In this document: positions 37,964-53,902 of the stretch, piece by piece
Position numbering within the stretch: position 1 is the first letter of the stretch
How the letters are laid out: each line of letters opens with the position of its first letter
Source: Lachnospiraceae bacterium
GTDB lineage: Bacteria > Bacillota > Clostridia > Lachnospirales > Lachnospiraceae
Length of the DNA: 64,000 bases
Reading direction: 5' to 3'
Assembly: GCA_017552715.1 (NCBI GenBank)
Contig: JAFZOW010000035.1
Location: forward strand, 62,001 to 126,000
The notes under the pieces: generated by a model
Told to the model about the DNA's origin: nothing
Database searches by the model: none
The model's input: only the letters and a program-made list of their open reading frames with translations
Program-made: the position numbers and the translations under genes

Positions 37964-38827
37964 TCAAAACTCCACAGTGGCCTTCCGGGGCTCAAAACAG
38001 CAGCAGGGCCGGAGGCATACGATACGCACGCCGCTGGCTCTCTGGGACCCGATCTTCATAAAAGTCCCCAGCACCGAGCAGTTCCCGCCCAATCCTATGG
38101 CCCCTACATTACATTTGTTCAGTTCCTCGGTGATGCGCTTTTCATAAAGCGACTGACGATCATAAGTACCTTCCGCCATGGCCTGCAGCATCAGGGAGGA
38201 TGCTTCATAATGACTCCGCCCTATTCCCACAGCCATGGTGCAGGGTGTGCAGCCCAGCTGACCGATCACTTCCTTCCCCCAGGAAATGATCTCATCCACC
38301 ACCGTATCCATACTGTGCTTATGGAACACACGGTAGGTTTTTGCGCGTATCTCCGGTCCTCCGCCCTGCATGAGCACTGTCAGGCGCAGCCGGTCTTCAT
38401 CCTCCGAATACTTAAGCTGTATGGGCGGCGGGCACAGGGCTTCGGAACGTTCATCCAGCCCAATGGACTGCTCGATCCGCTCCTTATCATCTCCCAGTAC
38501 CGCCATAGGCCTGCCCGGGAGAGTCTTTAAGCCTCTTCTTACCCCTTCGTGAACTGCTTCAAGGAAGTCCCCGTCTACCGTCCGCTTCCTTCCCACTTCC
38601 AGGATAAGATGCGGGATCCCCGTATCATCGCAGAGCGGAGAATGCTTTCTGGCAGCGCTTTCCGCATTCCGCACGATCTCCTTCATGGCCCAGCAGGACA
38701 GTTCCTCCGTTTCCCCGGCGATCCCCCGTTCATATGCGCCGTAGCGATCCTCGGGAAATACCGATCCTGCCTTTACCAGGGTCTGTGATACCTTTTCCGC
38801 GATTTCCTCAAACACTTTTTCTTCCAT
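37964..38827 (-). CDS. Class I fumarase/tartrate dehydratase-type hydratase, alpha subunit
   Basis: A 287-residue protein of the iron-sulfur fumarase alpha family (two-subunit FumA/TtdA type). Cluster-ligand cysteines are seen in PLCDDTG (about 65), GCTPC (about 192-196) and the C-terminal PCCCFEPRKATVEF; GQLGCTPCTMAVGIG and GLGGN are further family marks. The enzyme adds or removes water across a C4-dicarboxylate or similar acid. The start is ATG 38827 with GAGG upstream. The matching beta subunit lies 5.5 kb upstream in the same operon (44299-44811), an uncommon split. It departs from typical fumarases (GGGPEIRAKTYRVF where GGGSEN-like sequence is usual), which hints at another substrate. 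Confidence 0.85.
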   Translation of the reverse strand: MEEKVFEEIAEKVSQTLVKAGSVFPEDRYGAYERGIAGETEELSCWAMKEIVRNAESAARKHSPLCDDTGIPHLILEVGRKRTVDGDFLEAVHEGVRRGLKTLPGRPMAVLGDDKERIEQSIGLDERSEALCPPPIQLKYSEDEDRLRLTVLMQGGGPEIRAKTYRVFHKHSMDTVVDEIISWGKEVIGQLGCTPCTMAVGIGRSHYEASSLMLQAMAEGTYDRQSLYEKRITEELNKCNVGAIGLGGNCSVLGTFMKIGSQRASGVRIVCLRPCCCFEPRKATVEF

Positions 38828-38907
38828 AACGATCCTCAAAACAAGTACGATTATAGCATCTTTTCAACAGGCCAACAATAAACGTCCCGGTACGTCACAG
38901 CCCCGCA

Positions 38908-40497
38908 TTAAAAGTTTGCATAGATAAAGCTGGCGGATACATCTTTTCCGGGAGCACAGATGATCAGGATCAGAAGCATGGCCGCATAAAGCATCGCCCG
39001 TACGATGGGCGGACACTTCTTCTTTACATCCTCCCATTTCTGTTTCTCACAGAGTATATCCACAATGATCAGCGCAGCTATGCCCACATCCGTGAGAAGT
39101 ACGTTCTTCTCTCCGATATTGGTAAAGAAATTCAGCACCAGACTGCTCTCCCACAGCCGGGGATGGGTCAGGGCGTGAACGATGGTATCCAGTGCGGTAC
39201 GGATATCCGGTGAAAGGGAGAAGAAGCGGAAGATACTGATCAGGGCAAAAGTCCGCAAAACACAGAAAGCCTTCCAGCCAAAACTCTCCCCACGGATATG
39301 AAGCTTATCCCGCATCCGGGCGTATACCTCTTCCAGCTGTGTTGTGGAAAGGATCACTATAAAATTCAGATAACCCCAGAACAGATAGGTCCAGTTGGCA
39401 CCGTGCCAGAGGCCTGTACAGGTCCATACGAAAAACAGTGCAAGATGACCGGCGATCAGCTTTCCCGTACGGGCTCCCCACTTCTTCCTGGCCCACTTTG
39501 AAAGCTTAGTTCCCGTCTTACTCATGGAAACGGGATAAAACACATAGTCCCTGAACCATTTTCCCAGGGTGATATGCCATCTCCGCCAGTATTCATCCAC
39601 GGTCTTTGCAAGAAAAGGCTGTCGGAAGTTTTCCGAAAGACGTATACCCAGGATGTGGCAGAAACCGCACATCATATCCATATAACCGGAAAAATCCGCA
39701 TATATGCGAAAGCTGTACAGGATCACGGCAAAACTGATGAGCACAAAACCGTGGTCCGAATAAGCAGCCAGCGTACTGTTGACGGATTCTGTCAGCAGAT
39801 CGGCAATGGCCACCTTTTTATAGGCCCCCCAGAGGATACGGGCACAGCCTGCACAGAGCCTCTCATAAGAAAAGCTATGCTCTTCTTCAAAGATCTCCTG
39901 CTTCAGCTCGTTGTAACGGCTGAAAGGCCCTTCCGTGATATGCGGGAAGAAGGACAGAAAAGTAAAGTACTTAAGAAAATTCTTCTCTGCCGGATACTTG
40001 CTGCGATATACATCCACCACATATCCCACGGCATGAAAAACATAAAAGGACATACCCAGGGGCAGAACGAGAACGAGCCCGAGCCCCGGAAGTTTTGCAT
40101 CGATACGGAAAACGGAAAGAAGCTTTCCTGTATTTTCCAGGATAAAGTTTCCGTATTTTATCACGATCCAGGGGGCCAGCAGCAGGATCACCGCCAGGGC
40201 ACAGATCCTCTTTTTCTGCTTCAGACCCTTCCGGCGCAGCTCATCCTTTTCCTCTTTACTTTCCGCTTCCTTAAGCCTTTGCGCTCCGGCAGCGATCCTT
40301 TTTTCCAGCCACAGTGCCGCCAGGTAGCTGACCAGGCCGCAGATCACGATAAAAACGATATACTTCGCTCCGTAGCTTAAGTAAAAGTATACATTGGCAG
40401 CCAGCAGTACCAGCCATCGATGCTTCTTCGGGAACAGAAAAAACAAAAGCACCGTGATCGCTGCAAAACATAAGCTGTGAAGCGAGACCAGACTCAT
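38908..40497 (-). CDS. MBOAT O-acyltransferase (DltB/AlgI-like)
   Basis: A 529-residue membrane-bound O-acyltransferase with about 11 hydrophobic helices. Family marks include YFTFLSFFPHITEGPFSRY (about 188-206), YRIYADFSGYMDMMCG-type sequence near 265-280, DEYWRRWHITLGKWFRDYVF (about 305-324) and the active-site His in GLWHGANWTY (about 360). These proteins move acyl groups from the cytoplasm to glycans outside, as in D-alanylation of teichoic acid (DltB) or alginate acetylation (AlgI). The carrier protein, AMP ligase and SGNH gene upstream complete a Dlt-like set. Confidence 0.93.
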   Translation of the reverse strand: MSLVSLHSLCFAAITVLLFFLFPKKHRWLVLLAANVYFYLSYGAKYIVFIVICGLVSYLAALWLEKRIAAGAQRLKEAESKEEKDELRRKGLKQKKRICALAVILLLAPWIVIKYGNFILENTGKLLSVFRIDAKLPGLGLVLVLPLGMSFYVFHAVGYVVDVYRSKYPAEKNFLKYFTFLSFFPHITEGPFSRYNELKQEIFEEEHSFSYERLCAGCARILWGAYKKVAIADLLTESVNSTLAAYSDHGFVLISFAVILYSFRIYADFSGYMDMMCGFCHILGIRLSENFRQPFLAKTVDEYWRRWHITLGKWFRDYVFYPVSMSKTGTKLSKWARKKWGARTGKLIAGHLALFFVWTCTGLWHGANWTYLFWGYLNFIVILSTTQLEEVYARMRDKLHIRGESFGWKAFCVLRTFALISIFRFFSLSPDIRTALDTIVHALTHPRLWESSLVLNFFTNIGEKNVLLTDVGIAALIIVDILCEKQKWEDVKKKCPPIVRAMLYAAMLLILIICAPGKDVSASFIYANF

Positions 40498-40503
40498 TTA
40501 CTC

Positions 40504-40728
40504 TCAGCCCTGCATCTTCAGGATAAGCTGATAAAGCGCTTCGGCGCTGTTAAAGTTTTCCGGCAGCAGATCATCCACATTGATCTCGATACCGAAATGC
40601 TCATTCACTTCGCTGACTATGGAGATGATATCAAAGGAGTCCAGCAGCTCATCATCGATAAGCTTTGTCTCCTTTGTAAAATCGATATCCTCGCGTATCC
40701 CCGACATGATCTTCAACAGTTCTTCCAT
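40504..40728 (-). CDS. Acyl carrier protein (DltC-like)
   Basis: A 74-residue carrier with the phosphopantetheine Ser in LLDSFDIIS (about Ser31), after KLIDDELLDS, the form used by DltC-type carriers rather than fatty-acid ACPs. It lies 6 bp upstream of the MBOAT gene and below the AMP ligase gene, matching a Dlt-like function of passing an activated acid to the membrane acyltransferase. Confidence 0.88.
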   Translation of the reverse strand: MEELLKIMSGIREDIDFTKETKLIDDELLDSFDIISIVSEVNEHFGIEINVDDLLPENFNSAEALYQLILKMQG

Positions 40729-40790
40729 TTTCCTATCCTCCTTATTTTCCTACCTTACGTTTGCGCTTCTTATTTCCCGGAAAGCTCAAT

Positions 40791-41435
40791 TTATATCAGC
40801 TTTTCCAGTTTTTCGATATCCGGTTCCTTAAGTAAAAGTTCCAGATTCTCCTTCACCTTCTCAAAACTCCAGTCCCACCATTTAAGCCGCAGCATGAATC
40901 CTATAGTCTCTTCCGGAAAATGGTAAGAGATCACCCGTGCCGGAACTCCAGCTGCGATGGCATAGGGAGGGATACTCTTCGTGATCACGGCTCCCGCGGC
41001 GATCACGGCTCCATCTCCTACGGTAAGATCCTTTTTCCTTAGGATGATGGCTCCGGCACCGATCCACACATCGTTTCCGATGCTGATCTTTTCTTCCTGC
41101 GGATGCTTACGGAGCTTTCCCATAAGCTTATTCTCAAAGCGGTATTCGGGCATCATGGAAGCGGAACGGTAATCGTGCTCATTTCCGCCTATATCCACCA
41201 TCCTGGATATACTGCAGTACTTCCCGATGCATGCCCAGAGTATGCTGGTATCGGCTCCGGTATAACTCATATCCCCTATCTCGGCATTGCGGATCAGGTT
41301 TCTTTTTTCTATATCCACATAGCAGCCCAGCCGGCTTTCCAGCACCACACTGTCTTTGTCGATGGAGGAATGCTCTCCGATCTTACTCTGTTTGACCAGT
41401 GCATCCGCATGCTGCCTGTATTTCCTATCTTCCAC
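40791..41435 (-). CDS. Hexapeptide-repeat acetyltransferase (CatB/Vat-like)
   Basis: A 214-residue left-handed beta-helix transferase. Hexapeptide repeats run over about 20-165 ([49 protein letters not shown]), with [12 protein letters not shown] carrying the likely catalytic His near 95, and [14 protein letters not shown] then [10 protein letters not shown] at the C-terminus as in the xenobiotic (CatB/VatD) branch. It would transfer acetyl from acetyl-CoA to a sugar or other small precursor. The start is GTG 41435, seven bases after GGAGGG. Confidence 0.85.
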
Positions 41436-41484
41436 TCTTCGTCCCTCCGGCAAAGCATAAAGCCATGCCCTTATGTCTGTGCTT

Positions 41485-42909
41485 CTAAAAAATCCAGCTT
41501 ATCTCCGCACAGTTCTTAAGCGCTTCGTACTGCACCTTGCCCGACGGATTCTTGGGTATTTCAGCTATCACATGTACATGAAACTGGTGCCGGTTGATCT
41601 TCAGCTGTTCATGAACAAAGTCCGCAATTGCTTCTTTAAGAGCCCCTTCCGTGGTATAGATATCCAGCGAATCATCCGCTCCCCCGCAGGCCAGATCCAC
41701 TATGGAAAAACGCTCCTTGATCAGGATCTCCACCTCCGAAAGGTTGGTGCGTTTCCCTGTGATCTTAATAAATCTCTTCTTTCTTCCCACAATATAGTAA
41801 TATCCGTCACTATCCCTGTATGCCACATCCCCGGTCTGCAGGCGTCCGTGATTCTCATCTCCCAGCTTAAGATCTTCCCTGCCTTCAGCATATCCCAGGC
41901 TCACATTATCGCCGTAGTAGATCAGCTCACCCTTCTCCTGCGGATCATCAAGCACTTTTCCGTCATCATCCGTTATCTCAAAACGTCCTCCGGGTATGGC
42001 TATACCCATACTGCCTTTTTTCTCAAGCGCTTTCTCCGGCGGCAGATAGCCCATACGCGCCGTGGCTTCGGAAGCCCCGTACATCACCACGAAACGTATC
42101 CCGGCCTGCGCAGCATAACGCGCAAACTTCTCATGCAGCACGGGAGAAAGCTTTCCCCCGGCCTGGATCATGGTCTTTAAACCGGGTACCGTCTTCTTCG
42201 TAAAGGAAAGCTTATCCATCATCTCGTACATGAAAGGGATACCCGCAAAAGAAGTGGCAGCATTCTGCTCAAAAATATCCCAGAATCTTCTGGAGTAACA
42301 GTTCTCTTTTGTAAGCACCAGGGAAGCCCCCGCATACAGATGAGTGTTCAGTACCGAAAGACCATAAACATAATTGAGCGGAAGCGAGCTGATCGCCCTT
42401 TCCTTATCATCGATGGAAAGATAATCGATGATGGCTTCCGTATTGGATATCAGATTCCCGTAACTCTGACGGATCAGCTTCGGACTGCCGGTAGAACCGG
42501 AGGTGGAGATCAATAGCGCCAGCTCCGGAAACAGTTCTGTCTGCGTCACAGCATCCGCTTTCAGCAGGGAATAGGAACGCAGGGATGCGATCCGGCTGTA
42601 GCCTGTAAGCTCCACCTCCCTTTCCCCGGGCAGCCAGATATACTCCGGCCTGTATTCCTCCGCTATAGATGCGATCATATGGGCCTGCAGGCCGCCATCC
42701 AGCATCAGGGGCACTACTGAATGGTTAAGAAAGGACAAATAGCCCGTTATGCATTCCGAAGTATTGGTACAGAGGATAAATGCTAAAGACCGGGGAGTCA
42801 GCTTTTCGACCAGCTGCTCCGTTTCTTCATACAGCTTAAGATAGGAGATCTGCTGCTCCCCTTCGATCAGCGCCGTTTTATCCCCGTATTTTTTCAGATC
42901 CCAGATCAA
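41485..42909 (-). CDS. DltA-like AMP ligase
   Basis: A 474-residue ANL ligase with P-loop [10 protein letters not shown] (about 135-144), [10 protein letters not shown] (about 270), the hinge [15 protein letters not shown], and the catalytic Lys in [11 protein letters not shown] near the end. It is the paralog of the ligase at 29723-31135. In a Dlt-like arrangement it would adenylate an organic acid and load the carrier at 40504. The start is TTG with GGAGG six bases upstream, overlapping the previous stop by 4 bp. The acid is unknown; the adjacent hydratase and dehydrogenase genes suggest a hydroxy or unsaturated carboxylate rather than D-alanine. Confidence 0.87.
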
Positions 42910-44306
42910 AGCTCCTCTCCTCCCGTTTTTTCATCAAAGAGATGGGCAATCTCATAATCCTGCCAGGCAAAATCTTCATCTTCCGGACTCAAAGCTGCAC
43001 GGAGACGAATCCGGCTGTCATCTTCGTCAGGGAGTTCCATGTGAAAGACCGTCTCCTCCGTCCAGTCAGATAAGGGTTCATAGTTCTGTCCGCCGTCCAA
43101 TGAAAGCTCCAGGGAATACAGCACCTGCACATCATCATTATGAAGGCTGCAGGCCCGTATCGTAAGCTCATTCCCATCCTGTTCAAAATCCGCCCCTACG
43201 GCCACCACCCTGTGCACCGTCTCCTTCAGTTCATCCAGATCTTTATAAAAGGATCCGCTTATATCTTCCCCGTCAAGAGCCCTTTTTAAGAGCTTTCCGT
43301 AGGCTGCACTGAGCTCATAAGCCCCTTCACCTGAGAAATGCCAGCCGTCATACATCAGATGATCGGGGAACAGCTCCACCCTGTTCCTCATATAGTTCAG
43401 ATTATGGTACTCTATCCCCTTCTCTCGGGCATAAGCCGTATAAAAATCCGCAGCTCCTTGAAAATTATCGATACTGTATACCCCCATCAGGGAACCCGGA
43501 GGTGATACCAGAATCAGCCGTATCCCTTTCTTCGCACACAGTCCACAGATGCGGTCAAGGTATTTCAGCCTTAGGGGATCCGCTTCCCCCGGATCAAAAC
43601 GGTTGGTCCATATCTTTTCTATGGCAATGTTCCCGTCCTCTATGCTGCGGTTCGCATAGATGAAGCCTTTTCCGAAATAGGTGTTCAGTTTGTTCATATC
43701 CCGAACGTAGCCGGATTCTTTCAGGCTGATGCGGTCCGAAAGATTCTTTGAAAGCTGTTCTGCACTGAAATCAAAACGGCGGCGATATAGATCAAAGAGC
43801 TGCGGAAACATATCCGTCCCCAGATTTCTCCAGAGGTAACCCGCCCTTCCGGCGATACTGAGTCTTTCATTTACCTTCAGCGTATGCTCCATCCCATCCT
43901 CGTCGGTAGGCTGAAAAGTGTTCCACTGAACGCCCAGAACAACTACAGCGGGCTGCGTCCGCCTGCACAAGTCTTCCAGCATATAATAGCTGTCTTCTAT
44001 CCTCTGGCCGGAAGTGCCGCCCACAAAGCAGTTATCCACCCCCAGCTCTTTCTCGTATACTTCGGGCACGAAAGCCCTGAAAATTCTTGAGGATCCAAGG
44101 AAGAATACATCTATATCTTCCCCCTTTTCTTCCATACGTTCCAGATCGTATTCATAATACAAAGCACTGCCCACCGGCATCGAAAGCCAGCCCAAGAAGA
44201 ATAATCCCGTAAAGAAGAAAAGCGCCGTAGCAAAAGGGACCAGTGCTTTCCTCAGGAAAGAGCGCACGCCGGTACTTCTGTCTTTTGATGAAGCCGGATC
44301 AGTCAT
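42906..44306 (-). CDS. SGNH-type protein, DltD/AlgJ-like partner of the MBOAT
   Basis: A 466-residue protein with one N-terminal transmembrane helix (about 22-44, ALVPFATALFFFTGLFFLGWL) and an extracytoplasmic SGNH hydrolase-like domain: GSSRI with the nucleophile Ser near residue 70, LGVQWN near 130, and the DxxH motif in YDGWHFSGEG near 325. The last 90 residues (LYSLELSLDGGQNY) form a beta domain. DltD, AlgJ and PatB are such proteins and complete acyl transfer outside the cell together with an MBOAT. The start is ATG 44306 (GGGAG upstream), overlapping the hydratase beta gene by 8 bp. Confidence 0.75.
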   Translation of the reverse strand: MTDPASSKDRSTGVRSFLRKALVPFATALFFFTGLFFLGWLSMPVGSALYYEYDLERMEEKGEDIDVFFLGSSRIFRAFVPEVYEKELGVDNCFVGGTSGQRIEDSYYMLEDLCRRTQPAVVVLGVQWNTFQPTDEDGMEHTLKVNERLSIAGRAGYLWRNLGTDMFPQLFDLYRRRFDFSAEQLSKNLSDRISLKESGYVRDMNKLNTYFGKGFIYANRSIEDGNIAIEKIWTNRFDPGEADPLRLKYLDRICGLCAKKGIRLILVSPPGSLMGVYSIDNFQGAADFYTAYAREKGIEYHNLNYMRNRVELFPDHLMYDGWHFSGEGAYELSAAYGKLLKRALDGEDISGSFYKDLDELKETVHRVVAVGADFEQDGNELTIRACSLHNDDVQVLYSLELSLDGGQNYEPLSDWTEETVFHMELPDEDDSRIRLRAALSPEDEDFAWQDYEIAHLFDEKTGGEEL

Positions 44307-44811
44307 AGATCGTCTCTCCCTGAGCAATAGCGATCACGGCGGGATAATCCTCAACCGTAAGCTCGTACAACGCTTCCATCCCCAATTCGGGAAAAGCGAC
44401 AACCCTGCTCGATCTTGTACGCTCATTCAGAAGGGCAGTAACGGGAGGGATCACCGCATAAACCGCATTCTTCTCCTTAAGGATCTCCACCGTTTCCGGC
44501 TTCAGCTTTCCCTTCCCCAGATGCATGCGTATGCCCGCTTCCGAAAGTATCCCCATAGTGCTCTCGATCTCCAGCTTATTACTGGAAGTGGGCCCCACCC
44601 CGGCCCGGCTCACCGCCGTATGGAAGATCAGTCCCCCTTCCAGATCAAAGGGAGCGGATGCGATCGAACCTTCCCGTATCATTTCAGCAATACGCGGCAG
44701 CACCGCATCTCTCCCGCAGAAAATCCTGCCGGAGATCAGCAGCTGATCCCGTATATGCAGTTTCATGATCTCGGATTCCGCTACAGGAAATGTAAGCTTT
44801 ATCACATCCAT
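44299..44811 (-). CDS. Class I fumarase/tartrate dehydratase-type hydratase, beta subunit
   Basis: A 170-residue protein matching the C-terminal/beta family of iron-sulfur fumarases: LLISGRIFCGRDAVLPRI (about 24-41), IFHTAVSRAGVGPTSSNKLE and MHLGKGKL. It should pair with the alpha subunit encoded at 37964-38827; alone it lacks the cluster cysteines. The start is ATG 44811, because the frame further upstream is only the shadow of the acyltransferase gene. It sits 5 bp past that gene and overlaps the SGNH gene. The two subunits bracket the Dlt-like genes, which ties the hydratase to the acylation pathway. Confidence 0.85.
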   Translation of the reverse strand: MDVIKLTFPVAESEIMKLHIRDQLLISGRIFCGRDAVLPRIAEMIREGSIASAPFDLEGGLIFHTAVSRAGVGPTSSNKLEIESTMGILSEAGIRMHLGKGKLKPETVEILKEKNAVYAVIPPVTALLNERTRSSRVVAFPELGMEALYELTVEDYPAVIAIAQGETIYD

Positions 44812-44816
44812 GTACC

Positions 44817-45857
44817 TTACCCCGCTTTCTTCTTCCGCCAAAGCGAAAAGATCTTCGGTATGAACCGGTATATAAGCATAAAACTCAGTACGGAATAAAG
44901 CGTGATAAAAACAAACCACAGGATATAAGCACTTATCCCCCCCTCCGGCAGGAAGAGCTTGAAAGCATTCCGGAAGATCTTGTGGTTTAAATAGATCGCA
45001 AGGGTGATCATCGCCCAGCGGTCCAGCCATACATTATCAAAGATCCTGTTCAATGAAGGATCACAGGAAGCAGCACAGACTATTCCTGCAAAAAGAAGGA
45101 ATGCAAAGAGGAAATCATAAGACGTCCGGTACACAAAACAGGGCAGCACAAGGCCTCCGGCGATCAGGCACAGATCCGAAAGAAACGCAATACTCCGTTT
45201 TTTACAGCTTCCTATCTTCTGTGAAAGAAGATAGGCGATCATTCCCAGATTAATATCCGCCAGTCCCCGGAGCAGGGCAGTGTTCAGGAAAAATCCGATC
45301 GTTTCCCTATGCTCCCCCAGCTGTCCGTATGTACGGAACAGATATGGATAGATAAAGAGTACGGAAAGGGGGCATAGCAGTTCAATATAAGTCTTTCCCA
45401 GCTTACGAAGGGCAAGCCAGATAAAATATCCCAGGATCAGCAGCGCCGAGAGGTACCAGCTCACGCTGTTATACAAAAAGGAGGCATCGTAATCAAGCCC
45501 CGCCGCATGTACCAGAAGTACTTCGGGTATATGGGAAACAAAACCCTTCAGATAATCCGCAGCCGCAAAGCCCCTGTAAATGCCGTTTATCGCGAAAGCT
45601 ACAAGGAACGAAAAGAAACAGTGGGGAAAGAATCTTACATAACGCTGCCGGGTATAAGCTGCCGCTGAGATACCGTTTTCCCCGGAATCTTCTTTAAGAG
45701 AAAAATACTTTTTTGCAAGCAGGAAACCGGAAAGCATGAAGAAGAATTCGACAGCGATATATCCGGATGTATAGCGGTCATAAACATTATTCAGATGATA
45801 ATAGGCGATCACATAGGTAAATACGATACGCCAGAACTGTAAACGTGAATTTTTCAT
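44817..45857 (-). CDS. Acyltransferase-3 family membrane protein
   Basis: A 346-residue protein with about ten hydrophobic helices of the OatA/NodX acyltransferase-3 type. The N-terminus has QFWRIVFTYVIAYYHLN with the key His near residue 21, and AVEFFFMLSGFLLAKKYF near 35-52. Such enzymes O-acylate polysaccharides or peptidoglycan, taking acyl groups across the membrane. Together with the MBOAT it means that the locus has two independent O-acylation activities. It is followed at 5 bp by the hydratase beta gene. Confidence 0.88.
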   Translation of the reverse strand: MKNSRLQFWRIVFTYVIAYYHLNNVYDRYTSGYIAVEFFFMLSGFLLAKKYFSLKEDSGENGISAAAYTRQRYVRFFPHCFFSFLVAFAINGIYRGFAAADYLKGFVSHIPEVLLVHAAGLDYDASFLYNSVSWYLSALLILGYFIWLALRKLGKTYIELLCPLSVLFIYPYLFRTYGQLGEHRETIGFFLNTALLRGLADINLGMIAYLLSQKIGSCKKRSIAFLSDLCLIAGGLVLPCFVYRTSYDFLFAFLLFAGIVCAASCDPSLNRIFDNVWLDRWAMITLAIYLNHKIFRNAFKLFLPEGGISAYILWFVFITLYSVLSFMLIYRFIPKIFSLWRKKKAG

Positions 45858-45887: not shown

Positions 45888-46856
45888 TCAACTGTACAGG
45901 CAATCCGCGATCACATCCGTTTTTCCTTCATCAAATAAAGCGATATTACGGAATGCTCCGAAAAGCATACGTTCATAGGATTCATAACTGAGGCCTGCAA
46001 TGTGCGGAGATAACAGAAGCCGGTCCACGGAACGCAATACGCTGTCTTTCGGAAGAGGTTCCTCCGCAAAGGTATCCATACCGCAGGCCGAAAGCTTACC
46101 GTTTTCGAGCGCCCGGATCAGAGCTGCCTCATCCACCAGCCTGCCCCGTGCCGTATTGACCAGCACCGCTCCGTCCTTCATGAGCGCAAGCTCTCTTTCC
46201 CCTATCATACAGCCCTTATCCTTATCATAAGGACAATGCAGGGAAACGATATCGCTTTGGGCAAGTAGCGTATCAAGATCCGTATAACGGATGCTGAACC
46301 GTTCTTCCTCTTCCGCGCTTTTCCTGTGCGGGCATGTGTATATAACATCTGTATCAAACCCACTCAGCATACGGGCTACGGCTGATCCGATCTTTCCCAT
46401 ACCGATGAGTCCTACGGTCCGGCCGGCCAGTTCCCTGGTCTTCACACCTTCTGCCGTTTTATCCCAGGCTCCCGCACGCATATGTGCATCCACCAGTCGA
46501 TGCCTCTTCAGAGCCGCCAGGATCAGCATCAATGTATATTCGGCCACACTTACCGCATTGACCCCGCGGTTTACATACAGGGGGATCCCGTAACGTTTCA
46601 TGGCGTCCAGATCGATACGATCCACTCCCACTCCGGTACGCTGTATCATCTTCAGCTTCGGAGCATTTTTCAGCAACTCCTCATCTATCCCCAGCTTCCC
46701 GCTGGATATGATATAATCCGCATCGTGAGCCAGCTCATGAAAAGCTTCCCTGCTCACTTCCGGAAGCATCTCAAGATCAAAACGCCCGTCATTGGCCTGC
46801 ATCAGAATGGCCCGGAGTTCTCCCTCATATCGGTTGGAAAGCAGAACCTTCTTCAT
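45888..46856 (-). CDS. D-2-hydroxyacid dehydrogenase
   Basis: A 322-residue NAD-dependent dehydrogenase of the phosphoglycerate dehydrogenase type. It has the nucleotide-binding GLIGMGKIGSAVARM (about 148-162) and the catalytic triad Arg in VNTARGRLVD (about 236), Glu in DTFAEEPLP (about 265) and His in LSPHIAGLS (about 283). It interconverts a 2-oxo and a D-2-hydroxy acid. It stands between a C-C lyase-like gene and an acyltransferase in a run of organic-acid enzymes, so it may shape the acid used for glycan acylation. The substrate cannot be told from the sequence. Confidence 0.9.
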   Translation of the reverse strand: MKKVLLSNRYEGELRAILMQANDGRFDLEMLPEVSREAFHELAHDADYIISSGKLGIDEELLKNAPKLKMIQRTGVGVDRIDLDAMKRYGIPLYVNRGVNAVSVAEYTLMLILAALKRHRLVDAHMRAGAWDKTAEGVKTRELAGRTVGLIGMGKIGSAVARMLSGFDTDVIYTCPHRKSAEEEERFSIRYTDLDTLLAQSDIVSLHCPYDKDKGCMIGERELALMKDGAVLVNTARGRLVDEAALIRALENGKLSACGMDTFAEEPLPKDSVLRSVDRLLLSPHIAGLSYESYERMLFGAFRNIALFDEGKTDVIADCLYS

Positions 46857-46862
46857 GACAGT

Positions 46863-48002
46863 CTATTCCGTAACAAAAAGATCCTTATAGCAGGACTCAT
46901 CCCGTATCACACCGTATACCCGGGCCCTCATATAAAGCTTCTCCGCCCAGTTCCTGTGAGGCCCAACTTCATTCATCTTGTTGGACTGCTCGCTTTTGAT
47001 CACGCCTCCGTCCGCATTCAGGATCTGACACGCATCGTTATATACTTCCTCCGTCACCGCAAGCATACCGTTCACATAAGGGATATGGGTGGGATGGATG
47101 ATGGTCTTACCTATAAAACCGTTGGCCCTATCCAGCAGAAGCTCCCGCAGCAGTCCGTCCACCGCATCATTGATCATGGGTTCCCTGCGGAAGATCGATG
47201 CATTTACGCTCTCCGGGATCTCGGAGAACTTCATGCTCTTCTCTACACGGAAATACTCCCATACGGGTCCGGATACGCTGTAGTCATTATCCCTGGCAAA
47301 CACATTCAGTACATCCTTGAGGCAGTCTGCCACCGGAAGGATATCATATATGGTATAGTTGATGCCCCGGCGCACCCCGAAAACGGAGGACCAGTCAGTG
47401 CCTCCCACACGTACGTTCAGCACCAGATCGTGATAGCGGTCCAGTATGTCCTTCACTCCCATGAGTTCATCGATACGTGTCTCGATATAAGCCATCTCCC
47501 GGCTCTCCAGGATCGGCATGCCGTAGACCACCTCATCAAAACGTTCATTCAATTCCTTCAGGAAAGCGTAATAGGCCTCCCCGTTCTCCTTGTTGAACTT
47601 GGGGAAATTAAAGGCCGTGATAAGTTTAAGCCGCCCGGCATTTAGCCTTTCCGCGAAATGCTTAAACTGTCCGATATTCCGTACACGAATGATAAGAAGC
47701 GGGATGTCCTCCCTGCGAACGATCCCTTTTTCTATATCTTCATTCAGAGTATCCAGCAGCCGGATCACATTGTCTTCCGCTGCAGGAACATCCGCCTCCC
47801 GGCAGGCATCTTCAAAACAGAGTACAAAAGAAGTCAGCCCCGGATACTTTTTTGTTACGATAGCCTCATGAAAATCCCTGGTCCCGGGCATATACATGGT
47901 GGCCCCAAGACAATATCTTAATGTTCTGATATCGGTATATTTATCAAATTCTTCCGATTCTTTAAGAAACTTTGATGAAGGCTGAAAACTGTGATGACGC
48001 AT
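46863..48002 (-). CDS. Citrate-lyase-like TIM-barrel C-C bond lyase (PF15617-type)
   Basis: A 379-residue protein. It opens with RHHSFQPSSKF and then RYCLGATMYMPGTRDF. The barrel has FVLCFEDACREADV (acidic residues for metal), LIIRVRN, VYGMPILES and GKTIIHPTHIPYVN. This is the form of the HpcH/HpaI and citrate lyase beta superfamily, and it is closest in my memory to the C-C bond lyase family (PF15617) first described beside tellurite-resistance-type biosynthetic genes and ATP-grasp enzymes. It would split or join a C-C bond of an acyl-CoA or oxo acid. The start is the ATG at 48002, overlapping the ATP-grasp stop as TGATG. Confidence 0.78.
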   Translation of the reverse strand: MRHHSFQPSSKFLKESEEFDKYTDIRTLRYCLGATMYMPGTRDFHEAIVTKKYPGLTSFVLCFEDACREADVPAAEDNVIRLLDTLNEDIEKGIVRREDIPLLIIRVRNIGQFKHFAERLNAGRLKLITAFNFPKFNKENGEAYYAFLKELNERFDEVVYGMPILESREMAYIETRIDELMGVKDILDRYHDLVLNVRVGGTDWSSVFGVRRGINYTIYDILPVADCLKDVLNVFARDNDYSVSGPVWEYFRVEKSMKFSEIPESVNASIFRREPMINDAVDGLLRELLLDRANGFIGKTIIHPTHIPYVNGMLAVTEEVYNDACQILNADGGVIKSEQSNKMNEVGPHRNWAEKLYMRARVYGVIRDESCYKDLFVTE

Positions 48003-49231
48003 CAGCATCCCCCCTTATAGCATATATCACCACGCTGCATTACTTTCCCTTCCGAATCTATAACCGAAATATTCTCATATGCCCTTTCGGCTTTCTTCCG
48101 GATCACATCCATAGAACGCCCGATGATCAGATAAGCTCCGACACGGTTCCGGCTATCCATATCCTCTCCCATGAGCTTTCCCTTTTCGATCATCAGATCA
48201 AAGCTTTCGATCACTCCCTCTTCGATCATGCGATCTATACCTTCCATATGATCAAACACCGCCCCTGAAGCATATACGATATTTGTTAGCATGCACTGAT
48301 CTTTGGGCTGTATCTTTATCGAATCGATATTGCCAAAATAAGAATCGATGATCGTATTTACAACATCAAACTCCATCTGCTGTTTCAGCATCTTGTAGCT
48401 TAAGCCACCGCCGATCCTGGGCGATACTTCAAGGACACGGATCTGACCATCCTTCATTTTGGCCTGGAAGAAAAAGGGTGTGTGTTCAAAGCCAAAGACA
48501 GATACCATACGTTCCGCTATGGATCCGATCTCCTGTATATTCTCGGAACTGAGCGGTGCCGGAATGACCGAACCCACCGATTGAAGGGCTATGCCTTCCC
48601 TGCGCGGCATCTCCAGCTTCTGTCGGGTCATGATCACATGGGATCTGGCATGATTCGCAAAACAATCCACCTGTATCTCCATCCCGTCACTAAAGCCTTC
48701 TACGATCACCTGTCCTTTCCTGGAAAAAGCAAAGGCAGCTTCAACATATCTTGCCAGTTCATCCCTGTCATTCGCCCGCTTTACTCCTTTAGAGCCGTTA
48801 TTATCCACCGGCTTTACCACAAGCGGAAATGAAAGATCCTCCGGGATGGGATCTCCCGGGCTCAAAATGCAGAAAGGCGTAGTCGGTATCCCTCCCTCCA
48901 TCATGCTTTTTTTCATAAGCCCTTTATCGGTGGTCTTTATCGCAGTATCCAGGCTGTACGGAAGGGGTAATCCCAGCTTTTCCGCAACATAACACATCGT
49001 AACATTGGCATGATCCACACAGATGGTTATGATCAGATCCGCTTTCCGATCCTGCGCGATCTTAAGGACCTTATCCCTTTCCAAGGTACTGACCTGAAAG
49101 AACTCGTCAGCATAAGGCCTTGCCGGAGGATGCTCAAGATAATCCAGGAGTATCGTATGATACCCTCTTTTCTTCAGATCCTCTATCAGTTCTACATGGG
49201 GAACCACCCCACCCAGTATAATGGCGTTCAT
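48002..49231 (-). CDS. ATP-grasp ligase
   Basis: A 409-residue ATP-grasp enzyme: pre-ATP-grasp domain (about 1-95, IILGGVVPHVELIEDL), ATP-binding loop VVKPVDNNGSKGVKR (about 140-155), VIVEGFSDGMEIQVDCF (about 180-196), and metal ligands in VLEVSPRIGGGLSY (about 267-280). These enzymes join a carboxylate to an amine or thiol through an acyl phosphate. The start is ATG 49231, overlapping the previous TAA as TAATG. The stop overlaps the lyase start. It probably amidates or condenses the organic acid made by the neighbouring enzymes; the substrate is unknown. Confidence 0.88.
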   Translation of the reverse strand: MNAIILGGVVPHVELIEDLKKRGYHTILLDYLEHPPARPYADEFFQVSTLERDKVLKIAQDRKADLIITICVDHANVTMCYVAEKLGLPLPYSLDTAIKTTDKGLMKKSMMEGGIPTTPFCILSPGDPIPEDLSFPLVVKPVDNNGSKGVKRANDRDELARYVEAAFAFSRKGQVIVEGFSDGMEIQVDCFANHARSHVIMTRQKLEMPRREGIALQSVGSVIPAPLSSENIQEIGSIAERMVSVFGFEHTPFFFQAKMKDGQIRVLEVSPRIGGGLSYKMLKQQMEFDVVNTIIDSYFGNIDSIKIQPKDQCMLTNIVYASGAVFDHMEGIDRMIEEGVIESFDLMIEKGKLMGEDMDSRNRVGAYLIIGRSMDVIRKKAERAYENISVIDSEGKVMQRGDICYKGGC

Positions 49232-50127
49232 TATTTCTTCTTCCATTCCGTGGGCGAAACCACCGCCTCGGGATAATATTCATCGATCACACGCTTTACC
49301 AGCGCGATCTGTTTGGCACGCTTCTTCGCATCATCCACACTGCTGTCCCAGCTGTGAGTCTTCGCTACGGATCCTCCGGTCTTTAAGTAGATCGGTGCGG
49401 CAACGCGTATCATTTCCGGCACTTCATAGTGACGGATAAAGCCCCCCGAAGATTCCGGATTCTCCGTATGGATATCGATGGGGATATCGATGGCCTGCCG
49501 CATGGCAGCCAGCATCTGCAGCTGTATATCCCGCACGGGATTCAGGGAATTGGCACCGATGGATTCCAGAAGACGGGCCGAGCAGGGATTCCCGTGCCCT
49601 GTATGTGCCGAGACCTTGAAATGGCAATCGGCCGGAAGTTCTCCCGCTTTACGCATCTCATTGAGCAGCCACAGGCAGCCCTCGTCGTAAAGAAGGAAGC
49701 CCCTGCAGCCCAGAGACGCAGCTCTTTTTACATCCTCCACGGCACGAACGATCTGCTCCTGCCCCCGCAGACGGTAGCCCATGCGCTGGCCTTCCGCCGT
49801 ATGTACGGAAGCACTTGTATCCGTAGTGGCCCTGGGACCGATGGCCAGGATCAGCTGCAGATGATACTCCGAAGCAAGACGTACCATCTCTGCGATCTCA
49901 CTGTCCAGAAGTGTCCATATCCCCTTGGTCTGGGTCACCCTGTGGATGGGGATCCCATAGCCGTCCAGTGCTTCCAGCAATGCCTGCATGACCTTGGGCC
50001 CCTGGATGCCGGGCACCTCAAAACGATACTGTCCCCCATCGGCAAAACGTTTTTCGGAGCTTTTCAGCCCGTAATCGTCCCCTTCCGGAAGACCAAGCTT
50101 TTTTAAGAATTCTCTCGTTTCCTTCAT
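49231..50127 (-). CDS. TIM-barrel-like protein, possibly U32-related
   Basis: A 298-residue soluble protein with an alternating alpha/beta pattern (YRFEVPGIQGPKVMQALLEA; LQLILAIGPRA; GCRGFLLYDEGCLWLL; HFKVSAHTGHGNPCSARLL; IPIDIHTENPESSGGF; IYLKTGGSVAKT). The pattern of one conserved-looking His, Asp or Glu at strand ends suits a TIM barrel, and the general style recalls U32-type barrels, but the U32 cysteine motif is not seen. GGTGG precedes the ATG. It is translationally coupled to the ATP-grasp gene. Function unknown; the operon position suggests a step in the same acid pathway. Confidence 0.5.
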   Translation of the reverse strand: MKETREFLKKLGLPEGDDYGLKSSEKRFADGGQYRFEVPGIQGPKVMQALLEALDGYGIPIHRVTQTKGIWTLLDSEIAEMVRLASEYHLQLILAIGPRATTDTSASVHTAEGQRMGYRLRGQEQIVRAVEDVKRAASLGCRGFLLYDEGCLWLLNEMRKAGELPADCHFKVSAHTGHGNPCSARLLESIGANSLNPVRDIQLQMLAAMRQAIDIPIDIHTENPESSGGFIRHYEVPEMIRVAAPIYLKTGGSVAKTHSWDSSVDDAKKRAKQIALVKRVIDEYYPEAVVSPTEWKKK

Positions 50128-50137
50128 AGATCCACCT

Positions 50138-51484
50138 CTATAACAGACTAAACAGTGTGTCCGTACCCTCTTCCAGTTTCATCACAGCATCATATATACT
50201 GCTGCGTCTTTTCTCATCTATCCCTGCCGCTTCCGTCAGGGAGAAAAACTTATCCTTCAGCTCTTCGGCACTTACCGGGTTTTCCGGTTCCCCTTTCGGG
50301 TAATCCACCCTGCAGGAAAAGCTCTCTGTGCCACTTTCGATCGTTACCACCGCCGCTCTCTTTTCCGGCACCAGCGCCGAAAGCTCCGGATCCTCCGCGA
50401 TCTCCACTCGCTCCATAAGCCGCTTTAGCTCGTCATCCGCAAGGCATTCGGGGGAATACTGCTGAAAGTTCACTCTTCCGTATTTCAATGCAGCGGCAGC
50501 GGAATAAGGCATGCTCATCTTTGCGGAAGCTTCCCCGCGTATCTCCGTGTGTTCGTGACCGCGTATGGCCAGGCCATAAGTCCGGATACGTATACGTTCC
50601 GCATCTTCAGCTTTAAGGCCGTGTTCTTCCCTCAGCCGCAGTACGGCCTCCACTACCGCATGGGTATGACGGCAGGCTGCATAGGGCTTGCGGTATATGG
50701 TACGGATCGCATATTGGGGCATAAAGCCATTCAGCAGGCGCTCTTCATTAAGCTCGCCTGCGGTTACCGCAAAAAAGCCCCGCTTTCCACCCAGCACATC
50801 CTCCGGTCCGGGCACTCCGGTACTGCCGTAAAATGCCGCATTAATGGCACAGGCCGCAGCTCTGCCGGCGTTGTAAGGCTTAAGCTCGGAGCTGTCATCG
50901 ATCAGCTGCAGCAGACCGGAAGCATCCGTAGCCGCACAGGAAAGTACCGTATTCCATTTTTCCCTTCCGATGGAAAGGGCTGAAGCCAGGCCCAAAGCAG
51001 CCCCCATGGTGCCGCAGGTAGCCGTGGCATGAAAGCCTTTCAGTTTATGCCCGGGCTGTATGGCCATGGCCAGGCGTATGGTAGCCTCATAGCCTACGAT
51101 CAGCCCCCGAAGGAATGCCTCCGAAGACAGCCCGCGTTCCGCTGCTACGGAAAGCAGAGCACTGATCACCGGTACCCCGGGATGCAGCATCCCGAAACGA
51201 TGTCCGTCATCCAGCTCGATATAATGAGCGTGGATACCGTTCAGCAGGGCGGCACTCAGCATATCACTTTTTTTATCCAGACCGATCAGCGGACAGTTTC
51301 CCGGGCTCAGCGCAAGTTCGAGATAAGCTCCGTCGCTTTCTTTCATCTGGGCCGCACCTATCATTGCACAGGATATATAATCCGCCACACAGCACTTTGC
51401 TTCCTCTTTTATTTCGGAAGGGAAATCCTGTGCGGCAAATTCCCAAAGGGAATCAAGAAAGCTTTTGCTTATCGTCGATGCCAT
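50138..51484 (-). CDS. MmgE/PrpD family dehydratase-like protein
   Basis: A 448-residue protein of the MmgE/PrpD family (2-methylcitrate dehydratase, cis-aconitate decarboxylase, iminodisuccinate epimerase). Family marks: the N-terminal helical domain with DYISCAMIGA (about 34-43) and IELDDGHRFGMLHPGVPVISALL (about 88-110), KGFHATATCGTMGAALG (about 147-163), and KPYAACRHTHAVVEAVL (about 260-276). The length is normal. The start is ATG 51484 with GAGGTGG upstream, overlapping the GT2 gene by 32 bp. It would dehydrate, decarboxylate or epimerise a tricarboxylic or related acid. Confidence 0.88.
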   Translation of the reverse strand: MASTISKSFLDSLWEFAAQDFPSEIKEEAKCCVADYISCAMIGAAQMKESDGAYLELALSPGNCPLIGLDKKSDMLSAALLNGIHAHYIELDDGHRFGMLHPGVPVISALLSVAAERGLSSEAFLRGLIVGYEATIRLAMAIQPGHKLKGFHATATCGTMGAALGLASALSIGREKWNTVLSCAATDASGLLQLIDDSSELKPYNAGRAAACAINAAFYGSTGVPGPEDVLGGKRGFFAVTAGELNEERLLNGFMPQYAIRTIYRKPYAACRHTHAVVEAVLRLREEHGLKAEDAERIRIRTYGLAIRGHEHTEIRGEASAKMSMPYSAAAALKYGRVNFQQYSPECLADDELKRLMERVEIAEDPELSALVPEKRAAVVTIESGTESFSCRVDYPKGEPENPVSAEELKDKFFSLTEAAGIDEKRRSSIYDAVMKLEEGTDTLFSLL

Positions 51485-52397
51485 TGACCACCTCGCGCAC
51501 ATTATACTGCGGCATGCCGCTCACCGTCATATAGATCCTTCCCAGATATTCTCCCATTATCCCCAGGATCACCATCAGCACGCCGCCCACAAAGAGCACC
51601 GTAAGCATGGTACTGGTATAACCGGAAACCCGGATCCGATGTGTAAGCTTACGGATCAGCAGATAGATGATGCCGATAAAGCTGCAGCCCGAAAACAGAA
51701 AACCCAGCCAGGTCGCCACCCGCAGCGGCACCATGGAAAAGCTGATAAAGATGTTGAGCCACATGCGGAAAAGCTTTTTCAGGGTATATCCGGAAGACCC
51801 GGAGATACGCTTCTGATGCTCGATCTCCACATTCCCGTATTTACTGGTGACCGACATCAGGAAAGAACCTATGGAGATAAAGGGACTCTTGTATTCCAGA
51901 ATGGCATCCACCACCGTACGGCTCCAGGCAGTGAAAGAGGAACGCTTGACTCCTTTGGGTTTGTTCCCCATCCCTTCGGCGATGCGGTTATGCAGGAAGC
52001 TGGTAAAACGCTTGAAGATATTATGCTGCTTATGCTTGAAATCCGCATAGACCACATCATAACCTTCCTTAAGCTTATCAACCAGTTTGAAGATCCCGTC
52101 CGCGGGATGCTGTCCGTCATCGTCCATAAAGACGATCACATCCCCCTTCGCCTGACGCAGTGCCGCCAGCTTGGCCGAAGGCTGCCCGTAATTCTTGGAC
52201 AGGTTCACCCCCGTGATCCGGCTGTCATTTTTACAAAGCTCCAGGATCGTGCCGAAGGTATCATCGGGAGAACCATCGTTCACCAGCACGATCTGGTACT
52301 CCTCTTCCCTGTTTTCAAACACTTTTTTTATGCCCTCTACGACCACCGGCAGGGTTTTGACGGAACGGTAGCAGGGGATACAGATCGAGATCAGCAT
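51453..52397 (-). CDS. GT2 family polyprenyl-phosphate glycosyltransferase
   Basis: A 314-residue protein: an N-terminal GT-A domain (SICIPCYRSVKTLPVVVEG; LVNDGSPDDTF; the DxD-type VFMDDDGQHPADG near residues 88-100) and two C-terminal transmembrane helices (about 233-255 and 268-292). This is the ArnC/GtrB/DPM1 type that loads a sugar on undecaprenyl phosphate at the inner face. The sugar would then be used by GT-C transferases such as those at 34406-37962. Confidence 0.9.
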   Translation of the reverse strand: MLISICIPCYRSVKTLPVVVEGIKKVFENREEEYQIVLVNDGSPDDTFGTILELCKNDSRITGVNLSKNYGQPSAKLAALRQAKGDVIVFMDDDGQHPADGIFKLVDKLKEGYDVVYADFKHKQHNIFKRFTSFLHNRIAEGMGNKPKGVKRSSFTAWSRTVVDAILEYKSPFISIGSFLMSVTSKYGNVEIEHQKRISGSSGYTLKKLFRMWLNIFISFSMVPLRVATWLGFLFSGCSFIGIIYLLIRKLTHRIRVSGYTSTMLTVLFVGGVLMVILGIMGEYLGRIYMTVSGMPQYNVREVVNGIDDKQKLS

Positions 52398-52411: not shown

Positions 52412-53860
52412 CTATTTCTTTAACTGTTTTCTTATCGTATTCAATCCGGGCCAGAGCTTCCAGAATGCCAGTATGCTTACCAGAAGCATTATACCCCAGC
52501 GAAGGAGCGTCGGTCCGGTATATGTCAGTACCGTAAGTTCATTGACTGCCCAGAAGACCAGGGAACGCAGCAGTACTCTCCAAAGGGTCACACAACGCAT
52601 GCCGCAGACCTTCTTCTCCAGGATCCCCTGAACTAAAAGCAGTACAAAATAGCTGAAAGCCGTGGTATAGGCAGCTGCCTGATAGCCGAAAAAGTGAATG
52701 CATACGGCATTCAGCACGATGTTAACCAGCATGGCGGCCACTGTTCCCATACCGCAGTAGAAGGTCTTCTTGCGGTAGTTCTGCATGGCCGTGAAGCTGA
52801 AGCTGAAAAAGCGGAAGAGCGTCCCCGTAACCATGGGGGCCACCAGATAGATCGCCTCTTCATATCTGCTCCCTCCCAGTACCTTAACGATCTCGGGAGA
52901 AAGGATCACCAGCGCCCAGGAGAAATAAGCAAAGCCATAGCTTATGTAAGTCCAGGGCCGTTCGATATCCGCCGCTTCCTTACGGTCCAGCTTTTCAAAG
53001 AGCCAGGGCAGCCAGGCCGCCCACACCGCATCCTCTATGACCCAGATGATGAAGGAGACCGTGGTAGCCAGGGAAAAGACCCCGGTGGGATCGCCCCCCA
53101 CCATTTTACGGACCATGATCTTGTCAGACTGGTTCATGATCTGGATGGACAGGGTCTCGGGTATCAGGGGCAGACTGAAGCCCAGCGCATATTTCCAGTA
53201 TTTCTTCCGTATCCTGAAGCCTCCCTGCTTAAACATGAGCAGGGCCACACAGAGTCCTCCAGCCACCTGCGGAAGGTAAAATCCGATTATACGCAGATCC
53301 ACCAGCCATTCCGGCTTCTGCCAGCGATTCCCCAGCCACAGAAGGATCACCGAAAGCAGGGAGGCCGGGAACATCATGAGAGCCGTAAGTATCACGCTCT
53401 GTTTATAGCGCAGCAGCTGACGCTCTCTTGCCTGATAGTAGTTGGTGGAGCTGTAGGCAAAGCAGTAGAGGATCATAAAGATATACATGATCCAGTCCAG
53501 CCCCATAAAGTCCATGAACTGCTTCCGGAAGAAAAGCGTTATAACAAGGAAGACCGCCGCCACAGACAGATGGGAAAGCCCCTGGACAGAAGCTACGTAT
53601 TCTTCATAATCGTCCGGGTGGTCATACTTGGCACGGGCTACGCTCTTGTACATGGCCAGCGACAGAAGCGGCACCAGGATCAGCAGCCAGGATTCATAAA
53701 CACGTATCTCACCGTACTGTGCCTTGGATACCAGTCGCGTATAAACCGGGGTGAGGAGAAAGGAAAGACCTCTCACCAGGATCTGCACAGCCACAAAAAA
53801 GATCCCGGCTTTAGCCGCTTTCCGATTCAGCGTCTTAGCGCTCAACGCCTCCTGACTCAA
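52412..53860 (-). CDS. Wzx-type polysaccharide flippase
   Basis: A protein of about 482 residues with 12-14 hydrophobic helices of the MOP/Wzx (RfbX) family, starting with the usual AAKAGIFFVAVQILVRGLSF and PVYTRLVSKAQYGEIRVYESW. It would move lipid-linked oligosaccharide across the membrane. I choose the TTG at 53860, four bases after GGAGGAG; the frame continues to another TTG at 53887. It is followed at 14 bp by the GT2 gene. A second flippase lies at 55266-56699. Confidence 0.88.
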   Translation of the reverse strand: MSQEALSAKTLNRKAAKAGIFFVAVQILVRGLSFLLTPVYTRLVSKAQYGEIRVYESWLLILVPLLSLAMYKSVARAKYDHPDDYEEYVASVQGLSHLSVAAVFLVITLFFRKQFMDFMGLDWIMYIFMILYCFAYSSTNYYQARERQLLRYKQSVILTALMMFPASLLSVILLWLGNRWQKPEWLVDLRIIGFYLPQVAGGLCVALLMFKQGGFRIRKKYWKYALGFSLPLIPETLSIQIMNQSDKIMVRKMVGGDPTGVFSLATTVSFIIWVIEDAVWAAWLPWLFEKLDRKEAADIERPWTYISYGFAYFSWALVILSPEIVKVLGGSRYEEAIYLVAPMVTGTLFRFFSFSFTAMQNYRKKTFYCGMGTVAAMLVNIVLNAVCIHFFGYQAAAYTTAFSYFVLLLVQGILEKKVCGMRCVTLWRVLLRSLVFWAVNELTVLTYTGPTLLRWGIMLLVSILAFWKLWPGLNTIRKQLKK

Positions 53861-53902
53861 GGAACTCCTCCAGCCTTCCCGAAACAAATAATCCGCATTC
53901 GC

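Follow-up and report, generated by a model that had tools for sequence, protein, structure and literature searches.

A putative surface-glycan operon of a Lachnospiraceae bacterium combines a conserved organic-acid core with a Dlt-like block that looks like an optional addition

In the Dlt system (DltA-DltC-DltB-DltD) an AMP-forming ligase loads a small carrier protein, and an MBOAT protein acts with an SGNH protein in transfer on the outside of the cell. Pathways built on phosphoenolpyruvate (PEP) mutase, phosphonopyruvate decarboxylase and an aminotransferase put aminoethylphosphonate on surface glycans, and the methylcitrate cycle consists of PrpC, PrpD, aconitase and PrpB. Operons that we take to be Ter-associated, from the Pfam name of PF15617 only, pair a lyase of that family with an ATP-grasp enzyme. 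In the methylaspartate pathway, mesaconase hydrates mesaconate (methylfumarate) to citramalate (PMC4682846), and MBOAT-SGNH pairs are described as a common bacterial theme (PMC12148441). Each of these shares parts or logic with a locus in a 64,000-nucleotide (nt) stretch of the 3.43 Mb genome of a Lachnospiraceae bacterium (contig JAFZOW010000035.1; G000:C58:62001-126000 in our own naming, where G000 is the genome), hereafter the window. We lean towards reading this locus as a surface-glycan operon with two separable modules, an acid core and an optional Dlt-like O-acylation block.

Between positions 56699 and 34406 the window carries 19 genes on the minus strand with intergenic gaps of -50 to +96 nt and, given the single strand and the short gaps, this run is likely to be one operon. 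It starts with two flippases, a gene without a Pfam match that we call PaaK-like, and a family 2 glycosyltransferase, followed by PrpD, a protein labelled here TIM298, an ATP-grasp ligase and a C-C lyase of family PF15617. A D-2-hydroxyacid dehydrogenase, an acyltransferase-3 protein, FumB, an SGNH-like protein, an AMP-forming ligase, a hexapeptide (LbH) protein, an acyl carrier protein (ACP) and an MBOAT protein make up the middle, and FumA and two large membrane-looking proteins form the end (Table 1). All the Dlt-like parts, and the organic-acid genes upstream of them, that a sequence-only reading of this DNA had placed here lie on the minus strand. The fumarase-type hydratase which that reading described as a single interleaved enzyme is present too, as two subunits, FumB and FumA, that flank the Dlt-like block. 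TIM298, which it had passed over, is the most conserved member of the gene set.

PrpD, TIM298, the PF15617 lyase, FumB and FumA form a conserved acid core. A scan for TIM298 over 84,980 species gave 341 matching stretches, and the analysis covered the best 80 of them; together with seven loci from the family and one further locus (L224) these made 88, reduced to 85 different loci by removal of three duplicates with identical TIM298 DNA (L048 = L128, L051 = L104 and L052 = L065). At least 5 kb is available on either side of TIM298 in 57 of the 85, termed full-flank loci, and in 50 of the 57 PrpD, the lyase, FumB and FumA all lie on the same strand within 8 kb of TIM298. At least one glycan-type gene is present in 47 of the 57. 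The recurring core and the glycan-type genes around it support the earlier proposal that a dedicated, special carboxylic acid is made beside surface-glycan genes; the likely product of the core is an unusual small organic acid destined for the cell surface. TIM298 is 75-91% identical across the core loci and 78-91% identical to the window's protein in the best 80 of the 341 stretches, above the median identities to the window of the lyase (56%), Fum (58%) and PrpD (39%).

The same association was seen within the family, in a set of 299 genomes to which the window's own belongs. The lyase had a match at E<=0.001 in 26 of them and a close one (E<1e-139) in eight; FumA matched at E<=1e-30 in nine, namely the eight close-lyase genomes and G046 (hypergeometric p ~7e-16 for the eight-of-eight overlap, calculated with G046 omitted). 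Weaker lyase relatives (E 7e-5 to 2e-46) in 18 further family genomes come without a core-type FumA, and one further genome of the window's genus, when searched, held neither the close lyase nor the core FumA. Judged by record title, the best 80 stretches are mostly from Bacillota, many of rumen or gut origin, and a few are bins titled Victivallales, Kiritimatiellae, Bacteroidales or Spirochaetales; records with strain titles that carry the core include Mediterraneibacter massiliensis, M. glycyrrhizinilyticus An427, Ruminococcus sp. zg-924 and Lachnospiraceae bacterium FE2018. Phylum labels are mixed in the lyase tree, with Lentisphaerota and Bacteroidota rows among those of Bacillota; because the out-of-phylum rows are metagenome bins, horizontal transfer is not claimed.

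The core is accompanied by alternating end enzymes, counted within 5-6 kb of it on the same strand. Among the full-flank loci, 35 carry only a thiamine pyrophosphate (TPP) decarboxylase, 21 only a dehydrogenase, one (L129) neither and none both. An aldo-keto reductase (AKR) accompanies the decarboxylase in 34 of the 35, and the dehydrogenase is of the D-2-hydroxyacid type in 16 of the 21 and of the unrelated Ldh_2 family in the other five. Over all 85 loci the counts are 56 with the decarboxylase only, 19 with the D-type only, five with Ldh_2 only and three with none. In a tree of 55 lyase sequences the decarboxylase and dehydrogenase versions form two clades, separated by one change with 100/100 support; L057 and L121, which carry Ldh_2, fall in well-supported sets with D-type neighbours. 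Within the dehydrogenase clade, two unrelated dehydrogenases thus replace each other. One decarboxylase was scanned, that of L124, and at 404 bits it clears the phosphonopyruvate decarboxylase model (cut-off 312.5). For the one Ldh_2 protein scanned, the top model is L-sulfolactate dehydrogenase, at 289 bits and below the cut-off of 500. Since members of these end-enzyme families use 2-oxo acids or the corresponding hydroxy acids, the product of the core would appear to be a 2-oxo acid, probably one that bears a second acid group. With three kinds of end enzyme alternating, this hidden intermediate is open to direct testing.

Phosphonopyruvate itself would be only one option for that acid, because the core decarboxylases differ from the window genome's own phosphonopyruvate decarboxylase (Ppd): the 47 compared form a separate group, 36-44% identical to Ppd and with a different conserved loop. 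Like the PEP mutase-type pathways, the locus has a small-molecule branch of its own within glycan islands and, in a sister variant, a decarboxylase that passes the Ppd model. It differs in that separate decarboxylase group, and in that the window's variant reduces instead; PEP mutase was found near the core in only two of the 85 loci, L076 and L114, where some 7 kb separate it from TIM298. A bolder proposal is that TIM298 represents a new enzyme family and that the core leads, without PEP mutase, to a 2-oxo acid resembling phosphonopyruvate or sulfopyruvate (a 3-substituted pyruvate in which a second strong acid group is present), with which many gut and rumen bacteria would decorate their surface glycans. 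This proposal is speculative and we regard it as improbable. Elsewhere in the window's genome (G000:C33; L140, 7408-12047), PEP mutase is fused to a cytidylyltransferase-like domain and lies with a phosphonopyruvate decarboxylase (455 bits, cut-off 312.5). This classical-looking phosphonate set also includes transaminase-like and nucleotidyltransferase-like genes, identified by eye.

The hydratase is set apart from ordinary fumarases by several measures. Class I fumarase/tartrate dehydratase alpha and beta domains are present, and TIGR00722 is matched at 113 bits (cut-off 100.65); the scores stay below the cut-offs of the true fumarase and TtdA equivalog models (PRK06246, 105 of 276; TtdA, 62 of 365; TIGR00723, 91 of 145). 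Compared with ordinary class I enzymes, the core subunits read CDDTG for CQDTG, GPTSSNK for GPTTSxR and GRSH for GGT, and window FumA is 24-26% identical to three ordinary FumA proteins. In a tree, a 100/100 branch separates the sequences of the core, L292 and L055 from three ordinary fumarases, all of them from operons with TIM298 relatives; the housekeeping fumarase of the window's genome was not included in this tree. The subfamily occurs in three of 398 genomes of the phylum (E<=1e-35), namely the window's, another core genome and G409. At the G409 locus (L292), FumA and FumB are 47% and 54% identical to those of the window and lie beside a methylaspartate ammonia-lyase (510 bits, cut-off 286). 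Also at this locus are SucCD-like proteins, which score under their cut-offs, and a citryl-CoA-lyase-type protein at 286 bits against a cut-off of 212. In G046 (L055) a FumAB relative adjoins a 4-oxalocrotonate tautomerase-like protein and an RraA-family protein that scores under the aldolase cut-offs. The mesaconase-like setting beside methylaspartase points to a 2-substituted fumarate as the most likely substrate of FumAB, and a 2-substituted malate would then pass to the lyase. The L292 operon (L292:2864-10536, G409:C88) is perhaps a methylaspartate route in which a synthetase and a lyase replace the CitDEF citramalate lyase.

The succession of a hydratase and a C-C lyase is a further likeness to the methylaspartate pathway, as is the shared FumAB subfamily. 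The core differs in using a PF15617 lyase and not citrate or citramalate lyase, and in adding PrpD and TIM298; the window lyase does not reach the citramalyl-CoA lyase RipC model (20 of 375). Neither glutamate mutase nor methylaspartase appeared among the recurring neighbour groups of the core, neither having been searched for directly. To the methylcitrate cycle the likeness is one of logic only, in that a PrpD-type dehydratase, a hydratase and a C-C lyase end in a 2-oxo acid; the core has FumAB for aconitase and PF15617 for PrpB, and no PrpC was recognised in it. The solved structures nearest to the window's PrpD are B. subtilis IRG1 and IDS-epimerase.

TIM298 itself matches no Pfam or NCBIfam model, and its label, our own, rests only on a weak likeness to peptidase family U32. 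The Pfam U32 model scores it at 12 bits, below the cut-off of 22.4, and 20 of 27 TIM298 members match at E up to 10, the best at 0.013. Alignment of profiles with hhalign gave a weak colinear match to U32 (P 0.0015, with a U32 alignment of the five of 12 loci that passed an ORF filter), and a profile search of the PDB returned two weak matches (E 0.22 and 0.65). Kinship with BKACE (alignment of seven of 19 loci, after the same filter), PEP mutase or the C-C lyase was considered and dropped, as hhalign found no match. Relatives of TIM298 occur in 32 of 398 genomes of the phylum. Besides the window's own, 16 places score above 350 bits, one of which (L224) is a true core; the other 15 (L225-L239), 52-57% identical, have nearby an ordinary FumAB in seven cases, Ldh_2 in six, a TRAP permease in four and PrpD in one, with two lying on contigs shorter than 5 kb. 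Malic enzyme was recognised by eye in six of the seven loci with TIM298 relatives inspected gene by gene. Several L225-L239 operons, read partly by eye, hold Ldh_2, ordinary FumAB, malic enzyme, aldehyde oxidoreductase-like and TRAP or TctA-type proteins, as in a catabolic pathway. Twenty more distant relatives (L204-L223, 32-48% identical) lie in catabolic-looking settings of several kinds, and in several of these loci glutamate-dehydrogenase-like proteins, M24/M20 peptidase-like proteins and TRAP transporters adjoin, by eye.

From gene content, conservation, co-localisation and the alternation of end enzymes we infer reactions, their direction, the kind of acid and the acceptor as follows. 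PrpD and TIM298 would supply or rearrange a precursor. FumAB would probably hydrate a 2-substituted fumarate to a 2-substituted malate, which the C-C lyase would split into a 2-oxo acid and a two-carbon unit. In the window, the D-2-hydroxyacid dehydrogenase would reduce the 2-oxo acid to a 2-hydroxy acid; in other lineages the 2-oxo acid would be decarboxylated to an aldehyde and this reduced to an alcohol. The ATP-grasp ligase would probably join a carboxylate of the product to an amine, for instance an amino sugar of the glycan precursor. The optional Dlt-like block (ligase, ACP, LbH, MBOAT and SGNH) would put some non-amino carboxylic acid on an exported polymer.

The core might instead be catabolic, converting an imported organic acid to pyruvate and acetate, with its place in glycan islands incidental. 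A TRAP permease lies near 12 and a LysR gene near eight of the 35 decarboxylase-type cores, the 52-57% identical TIM298 relatives lie in operons of catabolic appearance, next to transporters, malic enzyme and ordinary fumarases, and FumAB relatives stand beside methylaspartase and an RraA-family protein. Neither permease nor LysR is near any of the 21 dehydrogenase-type loci, which are the window's kind; the glycan-type genes of most full-flank loci and the tight spacing of the window core among flippases and a glycosyltransferase also speak against catabolism, and an end in reductase or decarboxylase would suit synthesis better. On balance we consider a catabolic core unlikely. The permease count and the operons of the TIM298 relatives, where the role may be degradative, nevertheless weigh against a surface-glycan operon with an acid core, and so do several other observations. 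For short flanks, 28 of the 85 loci were excluded, and the four partners occur anywhere in the locus in only 64 of the 85. L054 carries both a D-2-hydroxyacid dehydrogenase and Ldh_2, and L098, with a decarboxylase-type core, has an extra pair of hydroxyacid dehydrogenase and PrpD about 9 kb upstream. The Fisher p of 4e-15 for the split between decarboxylase and dehydrogenase overstates the case because the split is a single change in the tree. The mesaconase tie comes from one locus (L292), and 21 of the 35 decarboxylase-type loci have no ATP-grasp gene within 9 kb. The extra pair at L098 (L098:1-10000) is perhaps the remainder of a second, reducing version of the core.

The Dlt-like block lies between FumB and FumA in the window, with gaps of -29 to +68 nt. 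Ordinary D-alanylation, or another amino-acid ester on a teichoic-type polymer, made by a divergent Dlt operon beside unrelated metabolic genes, would account for the presence of the Dlt functions: ligase, carrier, MBOAT and, by motif, an SGNH-like protein. The MBOAT partner is recognised both by PF03062 and by a WHG motif, whose histidine we take to be catalytic; the active-site roles of the block's other motifs are likewise our assumption. The ligase scores 81.8 bits against the DltA model TIGR01734 (cut-off 559.85) and 84.5 against PRK04813 (cut-off 476), the ACP scores 25.4 against the DltC model (cut-off 68), and the metabolic genes are a conserved core and not random neighbours. By the DltA and DltC cut-offs an ordinary Dlt system was rejected, and we hold this explanation to be very improbable. 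The solved ligases that score best are oxalate and succinylbenzoate CoA ligases, with DltA chains (65.5 bits) behind these and malonyl ligases, which makes a di-acid substrate plausible. With these model scores and relatives, D-alanine looks an unlikely substrate. At the place of the FDxS motif, whose aspartate is usual in amino-acid ligases, the window ligase appears to read PLNYVYG. The locus further differs from Dlt in its extra LbH protein and in the position of the block inside an acid-making operon.

The sequence-only reading had gone further, proposing that the acid is put on an outer glycan by Dlt logic; in such a model the AMP ligase would activate the core acid and load the ACP with it, and MBOAT and SGNH would carry out the transfer to the glycan. 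The position of the block inside the core operon, and the possibility that the ligase takes a di-acid, fit this model. So do L056 and L057, two close relatives of the window in which the full block (SGNH, ligase, LbH, ACP and MBOAT) directly follows FumA with its neighbour order kept, the ACP being 92-93% and the LbH protein 73% identical. Those two are the only ones of 85 other loci with the full block beside the core, and the ligase is present in two of the 53 loci that reach at least 9 kb downstream of TIM298. Single, more distant matches to MBOAT, LbH or ACP were found in seven further loci (L058, L059, L066, L101, L103, L120 and L129), and the block is missing from L058-L060, whose core is the same. 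Outside the block, carrier proteins occur near the core in L053 (a weak match in the terminal part of a membrane protein), L054 (37%) and L059 (64%, on the opposite strand), too few to support the model. Related ligases occur in 33 of the 299 family genomes, two of which hold the core, one of them on another contig; inheritance of ligase and core as one unit is not supported, the core being present in two of 33 genomes with the ligase against six of 266 without it (Fisher p 0.22). Of 29 loci with ligase relatives, at least 11, by eye, have a different carrier protein next to the ligase. Loading of the core acid by the Dlt-like set as a general route is therefore doubtful: the expected co-occurrence of organic-acid and Dlt-like genes fails in most loci and holds in L056 and L057. 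Within the window's own lineage the block may carry the core acid. Otherwise it looks like an optional, separable add-on to the acid core.

An ATP-grasp gene is a more regular companion of the core. Counts here pool two groups: one lies near 20 of the 21 dehydrogenase-type full-flank loci, the window's variant, and between TIM298 and the lyase in 14 of them, and one lies near 14 of the 35 decarboxylase-type cores. As ATP-grasp is frequent beside the core and the Dlt-like block rare, we think that the core acid usually reaches its acceptor through ATP-grasp, the Dlt-like block being an added O-acylation. The lyase family and ATP-grasp (PF15632, 37.8 bits, cut-off 29.1) are shared with the Ter-associated operons; the window lyase differs in belonging to the group found in eight of the 299 family genomes, with core FumA.

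No publication on this gene set was found in the literature searched, whose coverage left out most subscription journals. With five genes, one of them from a family without a Pfam match, and 341 TIM298 stretches in 84,980 species, the core would be a recurring unsolved pathway, and by record title its carriers among the best 80 of these stretches come largely from gut and rumen. Should the product of the core end up in surface glycans, it would add a new non-sugar group met by hosts and phages.

Table 1. Features of the putative operon in the window, in gene order (all coordinates are window positions).
Feature	Position	Strand	Sequence evidence
Flippase (Wzx type)	52412..53887	-	PF01943 61 bits; 57% in L056-L058
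Family 2 glycosyltransferase adjoining core	51453..52397	-	PF00535 96 bits; 76% identical in L056-L058
PrpD-family enzyme, acid core	50138..51502	-	PF03972 170 bits, PF19305 155 bits
TIM298, 298-aa core protein	49231..50127	-	no Pfam/NCBIfam match
ATP-grasp ligase	48002..49246	-	PF13535 47 bits
PF15617 C-C lyase, acid core, CitE-like	46863..48008	-	376 bits, cut-off 28.4
D-2-hydroxyacid dehydrogenase (putative reducing option)	45888..46856	-	PF02826 200 bits
Acyltransferase-3 membrane protein, optional	44817..45857	-	PF01757 61 bits
FumB, beta subunit of core hydratase	44299..44811	-	PF05683 91 bits; GPTSSNK signature
SGNH-like protein, Dlt-like block	42906..44327	-	GSS and DxxH motifs; no Pfam match
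AMP-forming ligase, Dlt-like block	41485..42909	-	PF00501 145 bits
LbH hexapeptide acyl/acetyltransferase, Dlt-like block	40791..41453	-	PF00132 38 bits
Acyl carrier protein (ACP), Dlt-like block	40504..40728	-	PF00550 27.5 bits, cut-off 20.8; DS motif
MBOAT acyltransferase, Dlt-like block	38908..40497	-	PF03062 62.8 bits, cut-off 27; WHG motif
FumA, alpha subunit of core hydratase	37964..38839	-	PF05681 158 bits, cut-off 25; CDDTG signature

In L058 a relative of the acyltransferase-3 protein likewise sits between the dehydrogenase and FumB. A scan for regulatory sites gave 12 promoter-like sites against a shuffled mean of 20.6 and 32 terminator-like sites against 17.0, many of them intragenic, and was not used. 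Another member of the AMP ligase family, 39% identical to the ligase of the block, lies at window positions 29723-31135 beside a short-chain dehydrogenase. Ligase relatives at L145-L173 often adjoin a small carrier protein and LuxE/LuxC acyl reductase-like proteins, by eye, a setting that suggests carrier-bound acids that get reduced. The window's genome has ten PF03062 matches, corresponding to about nine MBOAT genes, so this strain may have diversified the O-acylation of its surface polymers.

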